Below are positions 19,584-26,591 of a DNA stretch of 64,000 nt, in pieces. Under the pieces are notes generated by a model. The model had not been told where the DNA came from and searched no databases. It worked only from the letters and a program-made list of their open reading frames with translations. Source of the stretch: Brachyspira pilosicoli (GTDB lineage Bacteria > Spirochaetota > Brachyspiria > Brachyspirales > Brachyspiraceae); NCBI RefSeq assembly GCF_036997485.1, contig NZ_JAWLPU010000002.1, positions 372,001 to 436,000 on the forward strand, in the 5' to 3' direction. The position numbers and the translations under genes are program-made. The first letter of the stretch is position 1. Each line of letters starts with the position of its first letter.

Positions 19584-20273
19584 TTATTTACTTTCTTTTT
19601 TCTCTTCTTTAGAAAGCATAGTTCTCACCGCTTTAGCAACCTTTTCTGGGTCTTCCTTTACCTCCCTCTCTAAACTAACCGCATCTGCACTTTCTTTTCT
19701 GAGAGGAAAATAATCGCTTGATTCTCCAACATTTGAATTATCAGTAACGGAAGATATTATGTCGCCTATATCACCCATATTATGATAATCTACTTTTTTA
19801 TTTTTATCAACATTTATATTATCAATACTAGGAACTATATTATTATCTGCCGCATTATTATCTTCCATTTTTAAGTCTTCAGCTGCATTAATATCTGCAG
19901 AAGAAGATTCAAAAGTTTTGTTTTCATCATTTGTATTTTCTGTAGGAGTATTAGCAATATCATTTGTATTTTCTTTAATTTCCCCAATTCCTTCATTATT
20001 TCCAGCTTGATTATTATTTGTATTACTGTCAAAAACTCCAGAAGATTCTATAGCATCAGATAAAAACTTTTTGAGTACAATAGCTAAAATATATAATATA
20101 ATACCAGTAATTACCGTAGATATAAAAGCTCTTATAATAGATACATCTATTCTATTTCTAAACAAAGTAGAAAATAAAAAAGTAAATATAAAAGATAACC
20201 CCATTATAATAAGTGATAATTTACCAAAATTACTGGAAAAATAATTTTTTACTTTAGCCATAAAATCATTCAT
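19584..20273 (-). CDS. Unrecognised membrane protein in the flagellar operon
   Basis: 229 residues. The N-terminal 85 carry two membrane helices (about 18-36, LSLIIMGLSFIFTFLFSTLF, and 48-68, AFISTVITGIILYILAIVL), followed by a long, acidic, Asn-rich and probably disordered cytoplasmic region (about 85-200), with a short conserved-looking end (EKVAKAVRTMLSKEEKKE). No known family recognised. It sits between flhG and fliA/whiG, 28 and 24 bases from each. In other spirochaetes uncharacterised genes occur near this place, so a flagellar accessory role is likely but unproved. Confidence 0.7.
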   Translation of the reverse strand: MNDFMAKVKNYFSSNFGKLSLIIMGLSFIFTFLFSTLFRNRIDVSIIRAFISTVITGIILYILAIVLKKFLSDAIESSGVFDSNTNNNQAGNNEGIGEIKENTNDIANTPTENTNDENKTFESSSADINAAEDLKMEDNNAADNNIVPSIDNINVDKNKKVDYHNMGDIGDIISSVTDNSNVGESSDYFPLRKESADAVSLEREVKEDPEKVAKAVRTMLSKEEKKESK

Positions 20274-20301: not shown

Positions 20302-21180
20302 TTAATAAATCCTATTTTCTCTTCTACTAACAAAAGCAAATAATGATTCCATAAATCCAGACAATCCTTTAGTATCTCTTTCTTCATCATATTCCATATC
20401 AATAATTCTCTTAGCTATATTGTATATAGAAATAGAAGCATGACATTTATTATCATATTGATAAAAAGGCAGCTGCTGTGATACAGAATAGGCTATAGTT
20501 TTATCCTCAAGCACATAACCTAAATACTTAATATCCATATCTAAATATCTCTTACTCACCTCTATAATTTTATCCCCTACTTCCTTACCTTCTGATGCTT
20601 TAGTTACTCTATTAACTAAAATTTTAATATCAGATTTAGGATCCTCCGGAGCTATAGATTTTATCACACCATAAGCATCAAGTATAGCTGTAGGCTCTGG
20701 TATAGTAACCACAATGTTCTCATCTGAAGAAAGCAAAAAATATAAAACATTATCAGATATACCAGCCCCCGTATCAATTATAATAATATCAGCATCATTT
20801 AAAGAGTCCATACTATTTATTAATTTAGTTAAACCTCTGCTTGACAAGTTTGCCAAAGATGAAAACCCAGAAGCTCCGGCAATATATCTAATTCCATAAT
20901 CCGTTTCAAGCACAACCTCATGTATCTTTTTAGTACCCTTTATAACATGATATAAATTATATTCAGGTATAGTTCCTAATATAACATTAACATTTCCAAG
21001 TCCAAGATCCGCATCTATTAGAAGTACATTTTTTCCTAATTGCTGTAATGCTATAGCTAAATTAATAGCAATATTAGTTTTACCAACACCGCCTTTGCCG
21101 CTAGTTACACTAATTATACGCTGAGGACGTTTATCTTTTACTTCCATCATCTTTCTTAATTCATCTGCTTGATCTTTCAT
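20302..21180 (-). CDS. flhG: Flagellar number/placement ATPase FlhG (MinD/ParA family)
   Basis: 292 residues. The ParA-type P-loop SGKGGVGKTNIAIN, the switch region DADLGLGNVNV and the membrane/dimer region are present. The N terminus contains KDQADELRKMM, which fits the DQAxxLR motif known from Bacillus FlhG/YlxH as the element that stimulates the FlhF GTPase. FlhG controls the number and site of flagella with FlhF. It lies 33 bases downstream of flhF, so the pair is expressed together. Confidence 0.92.
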   Translation of the reverse strand: MKDQADELRKMMEVKDKRPQRIISVTSGKGGVGKTNIAINLAIALQQLGKNVLLIDADLGLGNVNVILGTIPEYNLYHVIKGTKKIHEVVLETDYGIRYIAGASGFSSLANLSSRGLTKLINSMDSLNDADIIIIDTGAGISDNVLYFLLSSDENIVVTIPEPTAILDAYGVIKSIAPEDPKSDIKILVNRVTKASEGKEVGDKIIEVSKRYLDMDIKYLGYVLEDKTIAYSVSQQLPFYQYDNKCHASISIYNIAKRIIDMEYDEERDTKGLSGFMESLFAFVSRRENRIY

Positions 21181-21212: not shown

Positions 21213-23015
21213 TTATCTATCATTTCCAAATAAACCTTCTATCATCTTATGAGCATATCTTTTAGCAGGAGCAATATCTTTAGGTACTCCCTGTCCATAA
21301 GTTACATAAGTAATAGGAACCTTGCTTTTTGATATAGCACATAAAGATGAAGCTAAATAATCAGTTTCATCTACTTTAGTTAAAATAATACCTTTATAGT
21401 TTGCAGGTTTAAATGCATTCATAATCTTTAGAGCATCTTTGTATTTAGCAGTAGAGCTCATTACAAGCTGCACGTCCATATCGAATCTTCCAACAGTATT
21501 AAAATATTTAGACATAGATACTATCTCCTCAACACTCTTAGGAGAACGTCCCATAGTATCTATAAAGAGTAAAGATGAACTGTCTAATTTTCTTATCTCT
21601 GCTCTCAAAGCTTCAGGAGTACTAGCACTTGTAAAAGGAACTTTCATTATACTTGCATATCTTTGAAGCTGATCAACAGCTGCTATTCTATAATTATCTA
21701 TTGTTACAAAAGATACCCTCCTACCTGACCTCATATACTGAGCTGCTATTTTAGGTATTGTGGTAGTTTTACCAACACCAGTAGGTCCAACAAATACCAC
21801 TATCTTCTTTTTAGAACCTATATCTATTCCATTTGCAAGGAGCAATCTGCTTGAAAAATATCTCTCTATCTCCTCTTTTATCACGTCTTTAGATTGAAAG
21901 AATCTGGCATTGCTTGATGTAAGTAAATATTCTCTTAATTCAAGCAAAACTTCTTCTGGAAACTCTCTATGTCTTAAGAAATTAAAACTTTCTTCCATAC
22001 TATCTGTAACGGAAGAATCTTTATTAGTAATAATATTTCTATCAGAATATGAATCTTCATCATCAAAATCATCTTGATAAAAATTATTATTATTTAAATT
22101 ATTTTTATTAACAGAAGTGTTTAAATGGTTATCCTCTCTTCTATAGTTTTTTATTTCTTCTATAGTGTTTTTTAAACTTCTCTCTTCATTTTGAAATATA
22201 CTATCATAATCATTGTTTTGATAAAAACCATTATTGCTTTTTTCTTTTCTATTATAATTCTTGGAGTTAAAATTATTTCTATCTATGTTTGGAATATTAT
22301 TTTCTAAATATTCTTTAACTATATCTTTTAGTTGATCTTGAACAATTCTTTTTACATTTGCTTCTATGCTGTCTACATTATTTTTTTGTTGATATTGAGA
22401 ATCGTATAATGAATAATCATCTTCCTTTTGAATATTTCTAGAATATGAAGTATCAGAATCACTCAATAAAGCACTACCCATCATACCAAAATTATTATTA
22501 AAATCATTTAAATTATTATTTACTACTTTTCTTTCCTCAAATCTTTCTTCAAATTGCATAGGTTTAAAAGGTTTATTTTTATTTGTAATTTCAGTGTTTT
22601 CTAATTCACTAATATTAACTGCAGGAGTATCTTTTTTATTAATTAAACTCTCATTTCTTTCACGAGCAGATTTTTTTAAAGCATTATTTATACTAATAAT
22701 TCTATTAGCCATCTCACTAGCATCTAATACTTCAGTAGTTTTATGCTTATTCATTTCTATTCTATCACTATTCAATTTATTTGAATACTCCTCATCTTCT
22801 TCTCTGTTATCTGTCCTTTCAGTATTTCTTCTTTCATATATAGAATTATTAAGCATTATTCTAAGCTCATGCTCAGTCTTTTTTCCAAAGCCCAAAAAAC
22901 CGCCAACTTGAATATCTTTACTTGATAATATTAAAAAATTGCTGCCATATTCAACTCTTGCCTTAGCAAATGCATCATTTCTGTCTTTTCCATTGATTAC
23001 TTTTATGTCAACCAT
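21213..23015 (-). CDS. flhF: Flagellar SRP-type GTPase FlhF
   Basis: 600 residues. The N-terminal B domain starts VDIKVINGKDRNDAFAKA; a long Asn- and charge-rich linker (about 75-340) with little sequence conservation follows, then the NG GTPase domain: FVGPTGVGKTTTIPKIA (G1, near 405), DTMGRS (G3) and LTKVDETD (G4). FlhF is related to Ffh and FtsY and places the flagellar export apparatus at the cell pole. The linker is unusually long and polar. It follows the small FlhF-like gene with a 17-base gap and uses a GGAG site. Confidence 0.92.
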   Translation of the reverse strand: MVDIKVINGKDRNDAFAKARVEYGSNFLILSSKDIQVGGFLGFGKKTEHELRIMLNNSIYERRNTERTDNREEDEEYSNKLNSDRIEMNKHKTTEVLDASEMANRIISINNALKKSARERNESLINKKDTPAVNISELENTEITNKNKPFKPMQFEERFEERKVVNNNLNDFNNNFGMMGSALLSDSDTSYSRNIQKEDDYSLYDSQYQQKNNVDSIEANVKRIVQDQLKDIVKEYLENNIPNIDRNNFNSKNYNRKEKSNNGFYQNNDYDSIFQNEERSLKNTIEEIKNYRREDNHLNTSVNKNNLNNNNFYQDDFDDEDSYSDRNIITNKDSSVTDSMEESFNFLRHREFPEEVLLELREYLLTSSNARFFQSKDVIKEEIERYFSSRLLLANGIDIGSKKKIVVFVGPTGVGKTTTIPKIAAQYMRSGRRVSFVTIDNYRIAAVDQLQRYASIMKVPFTSASTPEALRAEIRKLDSSSLLFIDTMGRSPKSVEEIVSMSKYFNTVGRFDMDVQLVMSSTAKYKDALKIMNAFKPANYKGIILTKVDETDYLASSLCAISKSKVPITYVTYGQGVPKDIAPAKRYAHKMIEGLFGNDR

Positions 23016-23032: not shown

Positions 23033-23206
23033 TTAATACTGCTCTAAAACGCCGATAGATACTTCAAATTCTTTTTTTATAACACCAAATATATTTTTTC
23101 TGCTTAATTCTCTTATGCTAATAATAAAATAATTTTCACCATATTTATCCCTAGCCTGTTTTTCAATTTCTTCTCTGTTTTTTCCAAAGATTTTTATAGT
23201 TTTCAT
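23033..23206 (-). CDS. 57-residue stand-alone homologue of the FlhF N-terminal domain
   Basis: An intact short frame between flhA and flhF, with GGAG eight bases before its ATG (another in-frame ATG lies two codons upstream). The peptide lines up with the first 57 residues of FlhF from the same operon: IKI-GKNREEIEKQARDKYG against IKVINGKDRNDAFAKARVEYG, then ENYFIIS against SNFLILS, and FGVIKKEFE against LGFGKKTEHE. Roughly a third of positions are identical. It carries no GTPase domain. I infer a duplicated, separately encoded B-domain that could bind FlhF partners or interfere with FlhF pairing; no function is proved. Confidence 0.8.
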   Translation of the reverse strand: MKTIKIFGKNREEIEKQARDKYGENYFIISIRELSRKNIFGVIKKEFEVSIGVLEQY

Positions 23207-23242
23207 AATCATAACTCCAATAATATTTTATTAAAAAATTAT

Positions 23243-25363
23243 TTATTTTATGCTAGCAACACCCTTTACATTGTACCCCTGTGCTATCTCAGTTGTTGCC
23301 ACTACTTTATACTTACCAATATTCTTAGCAATAAACTGATACAAAGGTCTTCTTATTAGCGGTGAAACTAAGAATACTATTTCATCAACTCCAGACTCTT
23401 GAACTAATTTTACTGCCTCTTTTATATTTCTTATAAGAGCCTGCATACTTTCAAAACTCATAGCTATCATTTGAGAGCCTTGTATATTTCCGCTGTCAGC
23501 TAAATTTTGAGCTATATTATTTTGAAGCTGCTGACTTAATGTAATAACTCTTATATTTCTTTGATCATCAGCTATAAGCTGCGATATTTGAGGAGCCAAT
23601 CTGCTTCTTACCAATTCAGTAGCCTGTTCGCTTCCCATAATTGTTATAGCATCAGCAATACCTTCTAATATAGCAACACTGTTTCTGATAGGTATTTCCT
23701 CTTGAAGCAAATTCTGCAATACTTTTTGTATATATCCAAGAGGGCTTTCATTATGAGGTTTAGAAGCAAGTATTTCTGATACAAGAGCTTTATTATCATC
23801 TTTAATACGATCAAGCATATTCTGTACTTCTTCACGTCCGATAAGAAGATTAGCATTTCTTTTAATTGTTTCAGTAAAATGTGTAGCTATAACAGCAGTA
23901 GGATCAAACAACATAAAACCTTTTCTATCAGCAACGTCTCTATCAGCAACTCTAATCCAATAAGCTGGAAGCCCAAAAGCTGGGTCTTTAACGCTCTCAC
24001 AATCAGCAGTAGGACCTTCATTAGAATTAGCATTCAAAGCAAGAAGCATATTAGGACGAACAAAACCCCTAGCCATTTCTGTATTATTTATGCTAATGAT
24101 ATATTCATCTGGCTCTATAGTCTGGTTGTCTACTATACGAACAGGAGGTACAGATAAGCCAATCTCTAAAGCAAGCTCTCTACGAACCTGAGTTACTCTG
24201 TGTATTAAATCCCCTCCCTCATTTTCCATTGCTAAAGGTACTAATGATACACCAATAGATAATTCTATTTTTTCGATTTTTAATAACGGACTAACATCTA
24301 AAGGACCATTTTGAGGCTGTTCTTGAACTTCTGCTTTAGTACCATCTTCATTAAGACCAAGCTCCTGCTGTTCTTTTCTTAGAGCATAACCTGCTAAAAA
24401 TAATGCTAATGCTATAACAAATAATGCTATCTTTGGAAAACCTGGTAAGAACATTAAGAAGAATGCAAAACCTGCACCAATAAATAAATTCTTTGGTTTA
24501 GCAAAAACCTGTACAGCAATCTGTGTAGACAAATTATCCTCACTGCTGCTTCTAGTAACAAGCAAACCAGTAGCAAAACTCATAAAGAAAGAAGGTATCT
24601 GGCTTACCAAACCATCGCCCACAGTAAAGCGAGTATAAGCGTCAGCAGCCTGAGCAAAAGGCTCTCCCCTCATTGTCATGCCAATTATGAGTCCGCCAAC
24701 TATATTTATGATAGTGATTATGATACCCGCTATAACGTCACCTTGAACGAACTTTGAAGCACCGTCCATAGTACCATAAAAATCACTCTCGCCTCTTATC
24801 TTTTTTCTCTTCTCTTCTGCTTCTTTATCTGTAATAGCTCCAGCTTGAAGTTCGCTTTCAACAGCCATCATCTTTGAAGGCATACTGTCTAATGCAAATC
24901 TTGCAGCTACTTCTGATACTCTTGTAGCACCTTTAGTAATTACTACAAACTGAACTATTATAAGTATGATAAATATTACAACACCAACAACTATATTATT
25001 ACCAACTACAAACTCAGCAAATGAAGTGATAACCTTACCATTAAAATTAGCACCTTGCGTAAGTATTGCTCTTGTTGTAGAAACGTTTAATGCAAGCCTA
25101 AATGCTGTCATCACCAAAAGCACAGAAGGAAATACGCTAAACTCACTTGCACTCTTTATACTCAAAACCATAAGAAGTATAAGCAAAGATATAACTATAT
25201 TTATGATAAGAAGAAAATCCAAAATCATAGAAGGAAGCGGTATAATAAGCATCATTATTACCATAACCGCACCTATAGCAAACATTATATCACTGTGTCT
25301 GCTAAGATTTGTAGGTAATTTTATCGAATCTAAAAGTGATTTAGCATTATTAATAGTTGCCAC
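23243..25363 (-). CDS. flhA: Flagellar export-gate protein FlhA
   Basis: 706 residues. Eight N-terminal membrane helices (to about residue 335) are followed by the cytoplasmic export-substrate domain. Family motifs are visible, such as MTAFRLALNVSTTRAIL and the FHIPEP region AARFALDSMPSKMMAVESEL...AEEKRKKIRGESDFYGTMDGASKFVQGD. FlhA forms the nonameric ring of the type III export gate. It lies between flhB and the small FlhF-like gene and is transcribed with fliPQR. Confidence 0.96.
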   Translation of the reverse strand: MATINNAKSLLDSIKLPTNLSRHSDIMFAIGAVMVIMMLIIPLPSMILDFLLIINIVISLLILLMVLSIKSASEFSVFPSVLLVMTAFRLALNVSTTRAILTQGANFNGKVITSFAEFVVGNNIVVGVVIFIILIIVQFVVITKGATRVSEVAARFALDSMPSKMMAVESELQAGAITDKEAEEKRKKIRGESDFYGTMDGASKFVQGDVIAGIIITIINIVGGLIIGMTMRGEPFAQAADAYTRFTVGDGLVSQIPSFFMSFATGLLVTRSSSEDNLSTQIAVQVFAKPKNLFIGAGFAFFLMFLPGFPKIALFVIALALFLAGYALRKEQQELGLNEDGTKAEVQEQPQNGPLDVSPLLKIEKIELSIGVSLVPLAMENEGGDLIHRVTQVRRELALEIGLSVPPVRIVDNQTIEPDEYIISINNTEMARGFVRPNMLLALNANSNEGPTADCESVKDPAFGLPAYWIRVADRDVADRKGFMLFDPTAVIATHFTETIKRNANLLIGREEVQNMLDRIKDDNKALVSEILASKPHNESPLGYIQKVLQNLLQEEIPIRNSVAILEGIADAITIMGSEQATELVRSRLAPQISQLIADDQRNIRVITLSQQLQNNIAQNLADSGNIQGSQMIAMSFESMQALIRNIKEAVKLVQESGVDEIVFLVSPLIRRPLYQFIAKNIGKYKVVATTEIAQGYNVKGVASIK

Positions 25364-25376
25364 TTTTCATTTCCTC

Positions 25377-26591
25377 CTATATAGCCCTTGCCATTTTTTC
25401 ATTACGTATTCTATATACCTCGCCAAGTATTCTTGACACAACATGAAACAACTTCTCAGGTATATACTGCCCTATATCAACATTATAATAAAGCTCACGG
25501 GCTAAAGGTTTATTTTCTACTATTTCTACTTCATGTTCTTTTGCTATCTCTTTTATTTTTAAAGCAATATTATCAACCCCTTTTGCAGTTACTATTGGTG
25601 CATAATCACCGCTTTGATATTTTAAAGCAACGGCAAAGTGCGTTGGGTTTGTGATTATTACATCTGCCTCTGGTACTGATTTGAGCATTGTTCTGCTTAC
25701 AATCTTTCTTGCCATTTCTTGAAGCTGATTCTTTACTAAAGGGTCTCCTTCCATTTCTTTGAACTCTTCTTTCATCTCATGCTTTGTCATCTTTAAACTA
25801 TTGATATATTGCTTTCTTTGAAAATAATAGTCCACAACAGCAACTATTATCATAAATATCATTACCTTTCCAATCATCTCTAAAACTATAAAGAAAAATA
25901 CATTCATAGCCTGCGCTAATTCCATATGAACCATATTAAATAAATCATTACGCCTGCCGTTTATTGTTGTAAATGTCAATACTGCTATAACAAGCATTTT
26001 AAAAAGTATTTTAGCTAAGTTCATTAAGTTTTGAGAAGATATAAAAACTCTCTCTTTAAAATTTGACCATGTAGGTGCTATTCTTTTGAAATTTGGTTTT
26101 AATTTCTTGGTAGTAAATAAGAATTGTGTTTGCGCTAAATTTACTCCAACACCAATAATCAATGCAGCAAGCAAAATTATACCAGCTGTTTTTGCTATTA
26201 ATAAAACTATTTCTATAAATATATCAGGCAAACCGTCCATAGTCATTGTTGTATCAGCATTTGCAATTCTATTTAAAATATCAATAAAAAACTGTGATAA
26301 TGTGTGAGTAAGATAACCTATAAGTAAAGCTATTAAAACAGTGGTAACACCCAATACCAAAGTTTGATTAATTTCAACAGAGTTTACAACACGTCCCTCT
26401 TCTTCTCTTGCTCTTCTCTTTTTTCTCTCTGTAGGAAGTTCTGTTCTTCCTTCATCTTCAGCAGATGCAAATAAAGTTAGTGCAAAACCTCTGCCTGTTA
26501 AACGCAAATATTTTCTATAAAGTTTAGCTCTTATAGAAATGAACAAATCTTTTACTTGTAAATATTTCATCAAAGAAGCAAGCATTATCAT
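25377..26591 (-). CDS. flhB: Flagellar export-gate protein FlhB, with N-terminal extension
   Basis: 404 residues. The FlhB core starts at ASAEDEGRTELPTERKKRRA, has four membrane helices, and includes the autocleavage site NPTH (IITNPTHFAVAL), which switches export from hook to filament proteins. The first about 42 residues (MIMLASLMKYLQV...RGFALTLF) have no counterpart in FlhB of enteric bacteria. The long start is supported by a GGAGG site six bases before it and by the ATGA overlap with the fliR stop. Confidence 0.93.
   Translation of the reverse strand: MIMLASLMKYLQVKDLFISIRAKLYRKYLRLTGRGFALTLFASAEDEGRTELPTERKKRRAREEEGRVVNSVEINQTLVLGVTTVLIALLIGYLTHTLSQFFIDILNRIANADTTMTMDGLPDIFIEIVLLIAKTAGIILLAALIIGVGVNLAQTQFLFTTKKLKPNFKRIAPTWSNFKERVFISSQNLMNLAKILFKMLVIAVLTFTTINGRRNDLFNMVHMELAQAMNVFFFIVLEMIGKVMIFMIIVAVVDYYFQRKQYINSLKMTKHEMKEEFKEMEGDPLVKNQLQEMARKIVSRTMLKSVPEADVIITNPTHFAVALKYQSGDYAPIVTAKGVDNIALKIKEIAKEHEVEIVENKPLARELYYNVDIGQYIPEKLFHVVSRILGEVYRIRNEKMARAI

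Follow-up and report, generated by a model that had tools for sequence, protein, structure and literature searches.

FlhF and FlhG form a widespread switch for the place and number of flagella, and Brachyspira species differ in flagellar number. In the window analysed here (a 64,000-nt stretch of the Brachyspira pilosicoli genome), a short open frame lies between flhA and flhF, and the question it raises is whether this frame is a gene and, if so, what so small a protein would do beside FlhF. The initial annotation, made from the sequence alone, had proposed a mini-gene that copies the N-terminal domain of FlhF, now called the FliG-interaction domain (FID) (PMC11236974). Our literature search, which was not exhaustive, found no publication describing this mini-gene.

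A conserved 57-codon gene between flhA and flhF

The frame (23033-23206, minus strand; 57 codons plus stop; MKTIKIFGKNREEIEKQARDKYGENYFIISIRELSRKNIFGVIKKEFEVSIGVLEQY) is intact and starts at the ATG at 23206, preceded at a spacing of 8 nt by a GGAG ribosome-binding site (23215-23218, minus strand), as had been annotated. Another in-frame ATG at 23212, two codons upstream, is too near the GGAG. The frame lies 36 nt after flhA (23243-25363, minus strand), which is directly upstream, and 17 nt before flhF (21213-23015, minus strand), whose 600-aa product consists of the N-terminal FID, a linker of about 340 residues and the NG GTPase domain. The order on the minus strand is flhB-flhA-mini-gene-flhF-flhG, followed by the genes for a 229-aa protein and sigma-28. 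The flhB frame upstream of flhA (25377-26591, minus strand), part of the same gene run, is named from its sequence, and its listed start may be too early. The product of flhG (20302-21180, minus strand), downstream of flhF, carries the DQAxxLR motif that the initial annotation had pointed out, in the form MKDQADELR. A promoter scan performed no better than chance, and the few terminator-like matches were all inside coding sequence. At its N-terminus the 229-aa protein (19584-20273, minus strand) is hydrophobic and resembles a membrane anchor, and it matches no NCBIfam family. Its gene lies between flhG and that for sigma-28, where the FlgV gene is placed (PMC11607428), so the protein is a candidate for the FlgV of Brachyspira.

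An open frame of this kind arises by chance in 1.1% of gaps of the same composition, so that its length is weak proof and conservation has to decide. By the initial annotation, absence of the frame from close relatives, or equal rates of synonymous and non-synonymous change, would have spoken against it, and neither was found. The mini-gene is present, in every case between flhA and flhF, in all 31 genomes of the class: 26/26 of the genus (75-100% identity) and 5/5 others, namely three from other genera of the family (53-70%) and two from the sister family (33-35%). GGAG or a close variant precedes it across the whole genus. Among 300 pairs within the genus, pS was 0.58 and pN 0.047 (pN/pS 0.08), the non-synonymous rate thus being far below the synonymous one. 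FlhF's own FID had a pN of 0.103 at the same pS (pN/pS 0.18), which indicates roughly twofold tighter constraint on the mini-protein; for the C-terminal part of FlhA, pN was 0.062 and pS 0.47 (pairs without gap alignment). The only broken mini-gene (G015, Brachyspira sp. G79; L027:1501-1671) carries two single-base losses in A-runs, which are probably sequencing errors, not gene loss. A chance open frame is therefore rejected by the conservation and the pN/pS of 0.08: positions 23033-23206 of the minus strand are a real 57-codon gene under strong purifying selection.

The mini-protein might still be a vestigial or neutral by-product, without function, of a tandem duplication of the 5′ end of flhF. 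Duplicates of this kind are indeed seen at the locus: in three genomes an extra, fast-evolving 84-codon copy of the FlhF FID (L013:1716-1970; L017:1715-1969; L016 1707-1958, reverse-complement coordinates) with a pN/pS of 0.5-0.8 stands between the mini-gene and flhF, and in G019 a second, divergent 56-codon mini-gene directly follows the first (L026:1693-1863). Judged from their sequences, the 84-codon copies are younger, loosely constrained duplicates, in contrast to the mini-gene, which shows a pN/pS of 0.08, is lost from none of the 31 genomes and keeps its ribosome-binding site, with the lone broken copy looking like sequencing errors. The by-product reading is already contradicted by these selection data, and we give it hardly any credence.

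Relation to the FlhF N-terminal domain

The resemblance of the peptide to the N-terminus of the adjacent FlhF, on which the initial annotation was built, held in every sequence comparison. BLASTP aligned the mini-protein with its neighbour at 17/47 identical residues (E=3e-5). Its sole NCBIfam match was TIGR03499 (FlhF), over model positions 1-52 (E=3.2e-5), and 8/10 mini-protein orthologues matched the same model (best 8.6e-8). A profile of the mini-proteins aligned by hhalign to one of spirochaete FlhF N-termini with a probability of 98.1 (E=1.1e-13). No Pfam family scored above its cut-off, and family scans of the 57-aa protein gave no match to a GTPase domain. The mini-protein thus corresponds to the beginning of the SRP-type GTPase FlhF, its adjacent paralogue, but does not have the SRP54-type NG domain, and hence no GTP binding, dimerization, stimulation by FlhG or NG-mediated polar tethering is expected of it.

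The predicted structure agrees with this assignment. The AlphaFold2 model of the mini-protein (pLDDT 88.6) has the order strand-helix-strand-strand, the same as that predicted for residues 1-60 of the window's FlhF (pLDDT 84.3), and shows the three antiparallel strands and one helix by which the FID is recognized in 9EN1, the structure of the FID of Shewanella putrefaciens FlhF (PMC11236974). Indeed, 9EN1 was the best match of the model among 350,542 PDB chains searched with Foldseek (TM 0.71/0.82), with an E-value of 0.065 that is weak because the domain is tiny; VIA-align superposed the two with a Z of 7.3 and 1.6 Å over 48 residues. Sequence searches of the PDB alone did not recover 9EN1. 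The likeness to the FlhF domain that the initial annotation had expected of a structural prediction is therefore borne out.

Other proteins share this beta-alpha-beta-beta arrangement and score close in VIA-align: dodecins (Z up to 6.9), the Jag-like 3GKU (5.8) and Alba (about 5). The fold is common, and it is sequence and location, rather than fold alone, that decide. A nucleic-acid-binding protein of the Alba or Jag-N (KhpB) type, regulating flagellar mRNAs and resembling the FID by fold only, could be read from the presence of Alba and of the RNA-binding 3GKU among these neighbours, and from the predicted pI of 9.35. However, the FID of FlhF is similarly basic (pI 9.16), the NCBIfam profiles match FlhF alone, and neither Pfam nor NCBIfam gave a match to a Jag/KhpB family; the likeness found to these proteins, which have other functions, is one of fold. 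We consider such a nucleic-acid binder very unlikely. The beta-alpha-beta-beta arrangement and a GFLG-type turn are common to the FlhF FID (22836-23015 in the window, and the FIDs of spirochaetes) and Jag-N (KhpB) domains, and the two may be distantly related.

The FID-coding part of flhF (residues 1-60; 22836-23015, minus strand) specifies the paralogous domain. With the FID of Shewanella FlhF the mini-protein has size, fold and flagellar operon context in common, and its homology to this domain of spirochaete FlhF is detectable in sequence. The mini-protein differs in being encoded by a separate gene, without linker or GTPase domain, and in one residue: a near-invariant glycine (G39 of the window's FlhF, after strand 2), which we defined ourselves from 19 spirochaete FIDs, is replaced by N, T, C or H in the mini-proteins. 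For this reason we speak of an FID paralogue and not of a canonical FID. The mini-gene is very probably a stand-alone paralogue of the FlhF FID.

Origin and distribution

A tree built on 61 columns placed the mini-proteins of both sampled families in one branch (support 95/92), which also held the second mini-protein of G019, and the FIDs of the class in a separate branch (95/92). The mini-protein branch has a long stem, and a monophyletic group of mini-proteins and class FIDs was neither supported nor rejected (p-AU 0.52); because the columns are few and the branches long, the precise placement of the duplication's root is uncertain. What the comparison of sequences strongly supports is one duplication from flhF that predates the split of the two families, its product having been kept in the flhA-flhF run. 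The description of the mini-gene as copying the FlhF domain thus stands in so far as a separate, conserved gene encodes the free domain; a recent copy of flhF is rejected by the tree and by the moderate similarity to FlhF (about 30-36%), which is old.

Outside the class, a profile search of 393 genomes of the phylum found mostly FlhF frames, alongside a handful of matches that were weak, short or broken, and 20 flhA-flhF gaps of non-Brachyspira spirochaetes, the widest included, held no short FID frame. When 84,980 species genomes were scanned with strict peptide patterns, which distant copies would escape, matches came from Brachyspira and its relatives only. A duplicated FliG was considered as the cause of the second FID and rejected: TIGR00207 finds one full FliG per class genome, except for an incomplete one where it finds none, and very divergent copies could escape it.

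Possible partners and role in flagellar assembly

FliG is the first candidate partner, since the N-terminal domain of FlhF is the FliG-interaction domain. In Shewanella, FlhF requires its residues 1-60 to bind FliG, chiefly the middle and C-terminal domains of FliG, and these residues are enough for binding; FliG so bound can bind FliF and cannot bind FliM/FliN, and HubP, a polar landmark, is bound by the NG domain of FlhF (PMC11236974). The Pseudomonas FlhF forms a stable complex with FliG in the presence of a GTP analogue but not after preloading with GDP; when it lacks the B-domain it stays at the pole, yet the cells have no flagella (PMC12713375).

By analogy, the mini-protein would bind the middle and C-terminal region of FliG. 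Since both the linker and the NG GTPase domain are missing, its complex with FliG would be soluble, able to join FliF and unable to join FliM/FliN, which would keep FliG out of the C-ring; alternatively, the mini-protein and FlhF would be competitors for FliG. Extrapolating from the Shewanella and Pseudomonas FlhF, a free domain of this kind would capture FliG with neither polar tethering nor control by GTP, and either holding FliG or competing for it would tune the timing and number of C-rings assembled at the cell ends. The initial annotation had suggested that the free domain could titrate partners or regulate FlhF dimers. Titration is plausible; direct regulation of dimers is less likely and finds no support, because FlhF dimerizes through its GTPase/NG domain (PMC12713375, PMC12826062). 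Accessory factors of FlhF such as FipA (PMC11620751) offer an analogy of function only, as proteins that act beside FlhF in flagellar placement; FipA works together with HubP (PMC11620751).

The loss of the near-invariant glycine means that the surface of the mini-protein may have changed partner. It could then be an adaptor derived from the FID that serves as a small regulatory or structural subunit, with FlhF itself (its linker or NG domain), FlhG, FlhA, FliF or a motor part specific to spirochaetes as candidate partners. Besides the glycine, this agrees with the distinct and strongly conserved sequence of the mini-proteins, with an ending of their own (SIGVLEQ in most of family f1), with their separate, long-stemmed branch, and with the position of the gene near flhA as well as flhF. 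Against it, the predicted fold and overall length are still those of an FID, and FliG is the sole documented partner of an isolated FID in the literature examined. We regard such re-targeting as a serious though less likely alternative, and judge binding of FliG, predicted by analogy, somewhat more probable than not as the function of the mini-protein. Taken together, a stand-alone FID paralogue that was duplicated before the families split, would bind FliG and would tune C-ring assembly is the best joint explanation, one we favour by a narrow measure. More tentatively, and with a little less than even confidence, a dedicated GTPase-free FID protein may hold FliG and gate C-ring assembly or set flagellar number, as a third component of the FlhF/FlhG system.

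These results suggest that the mini-gene encodes a previously undescribed assembly factor for the internal flagella of Brachyspira and its relatives. A natural GTPase-free FliG-binding part would separate the capture of FliG from polar tethering, making the effect of FliG capture alone directly testable, and the mini-gene points to a part of the Brachyspira periplasmic flagella that is specific to this lineage.
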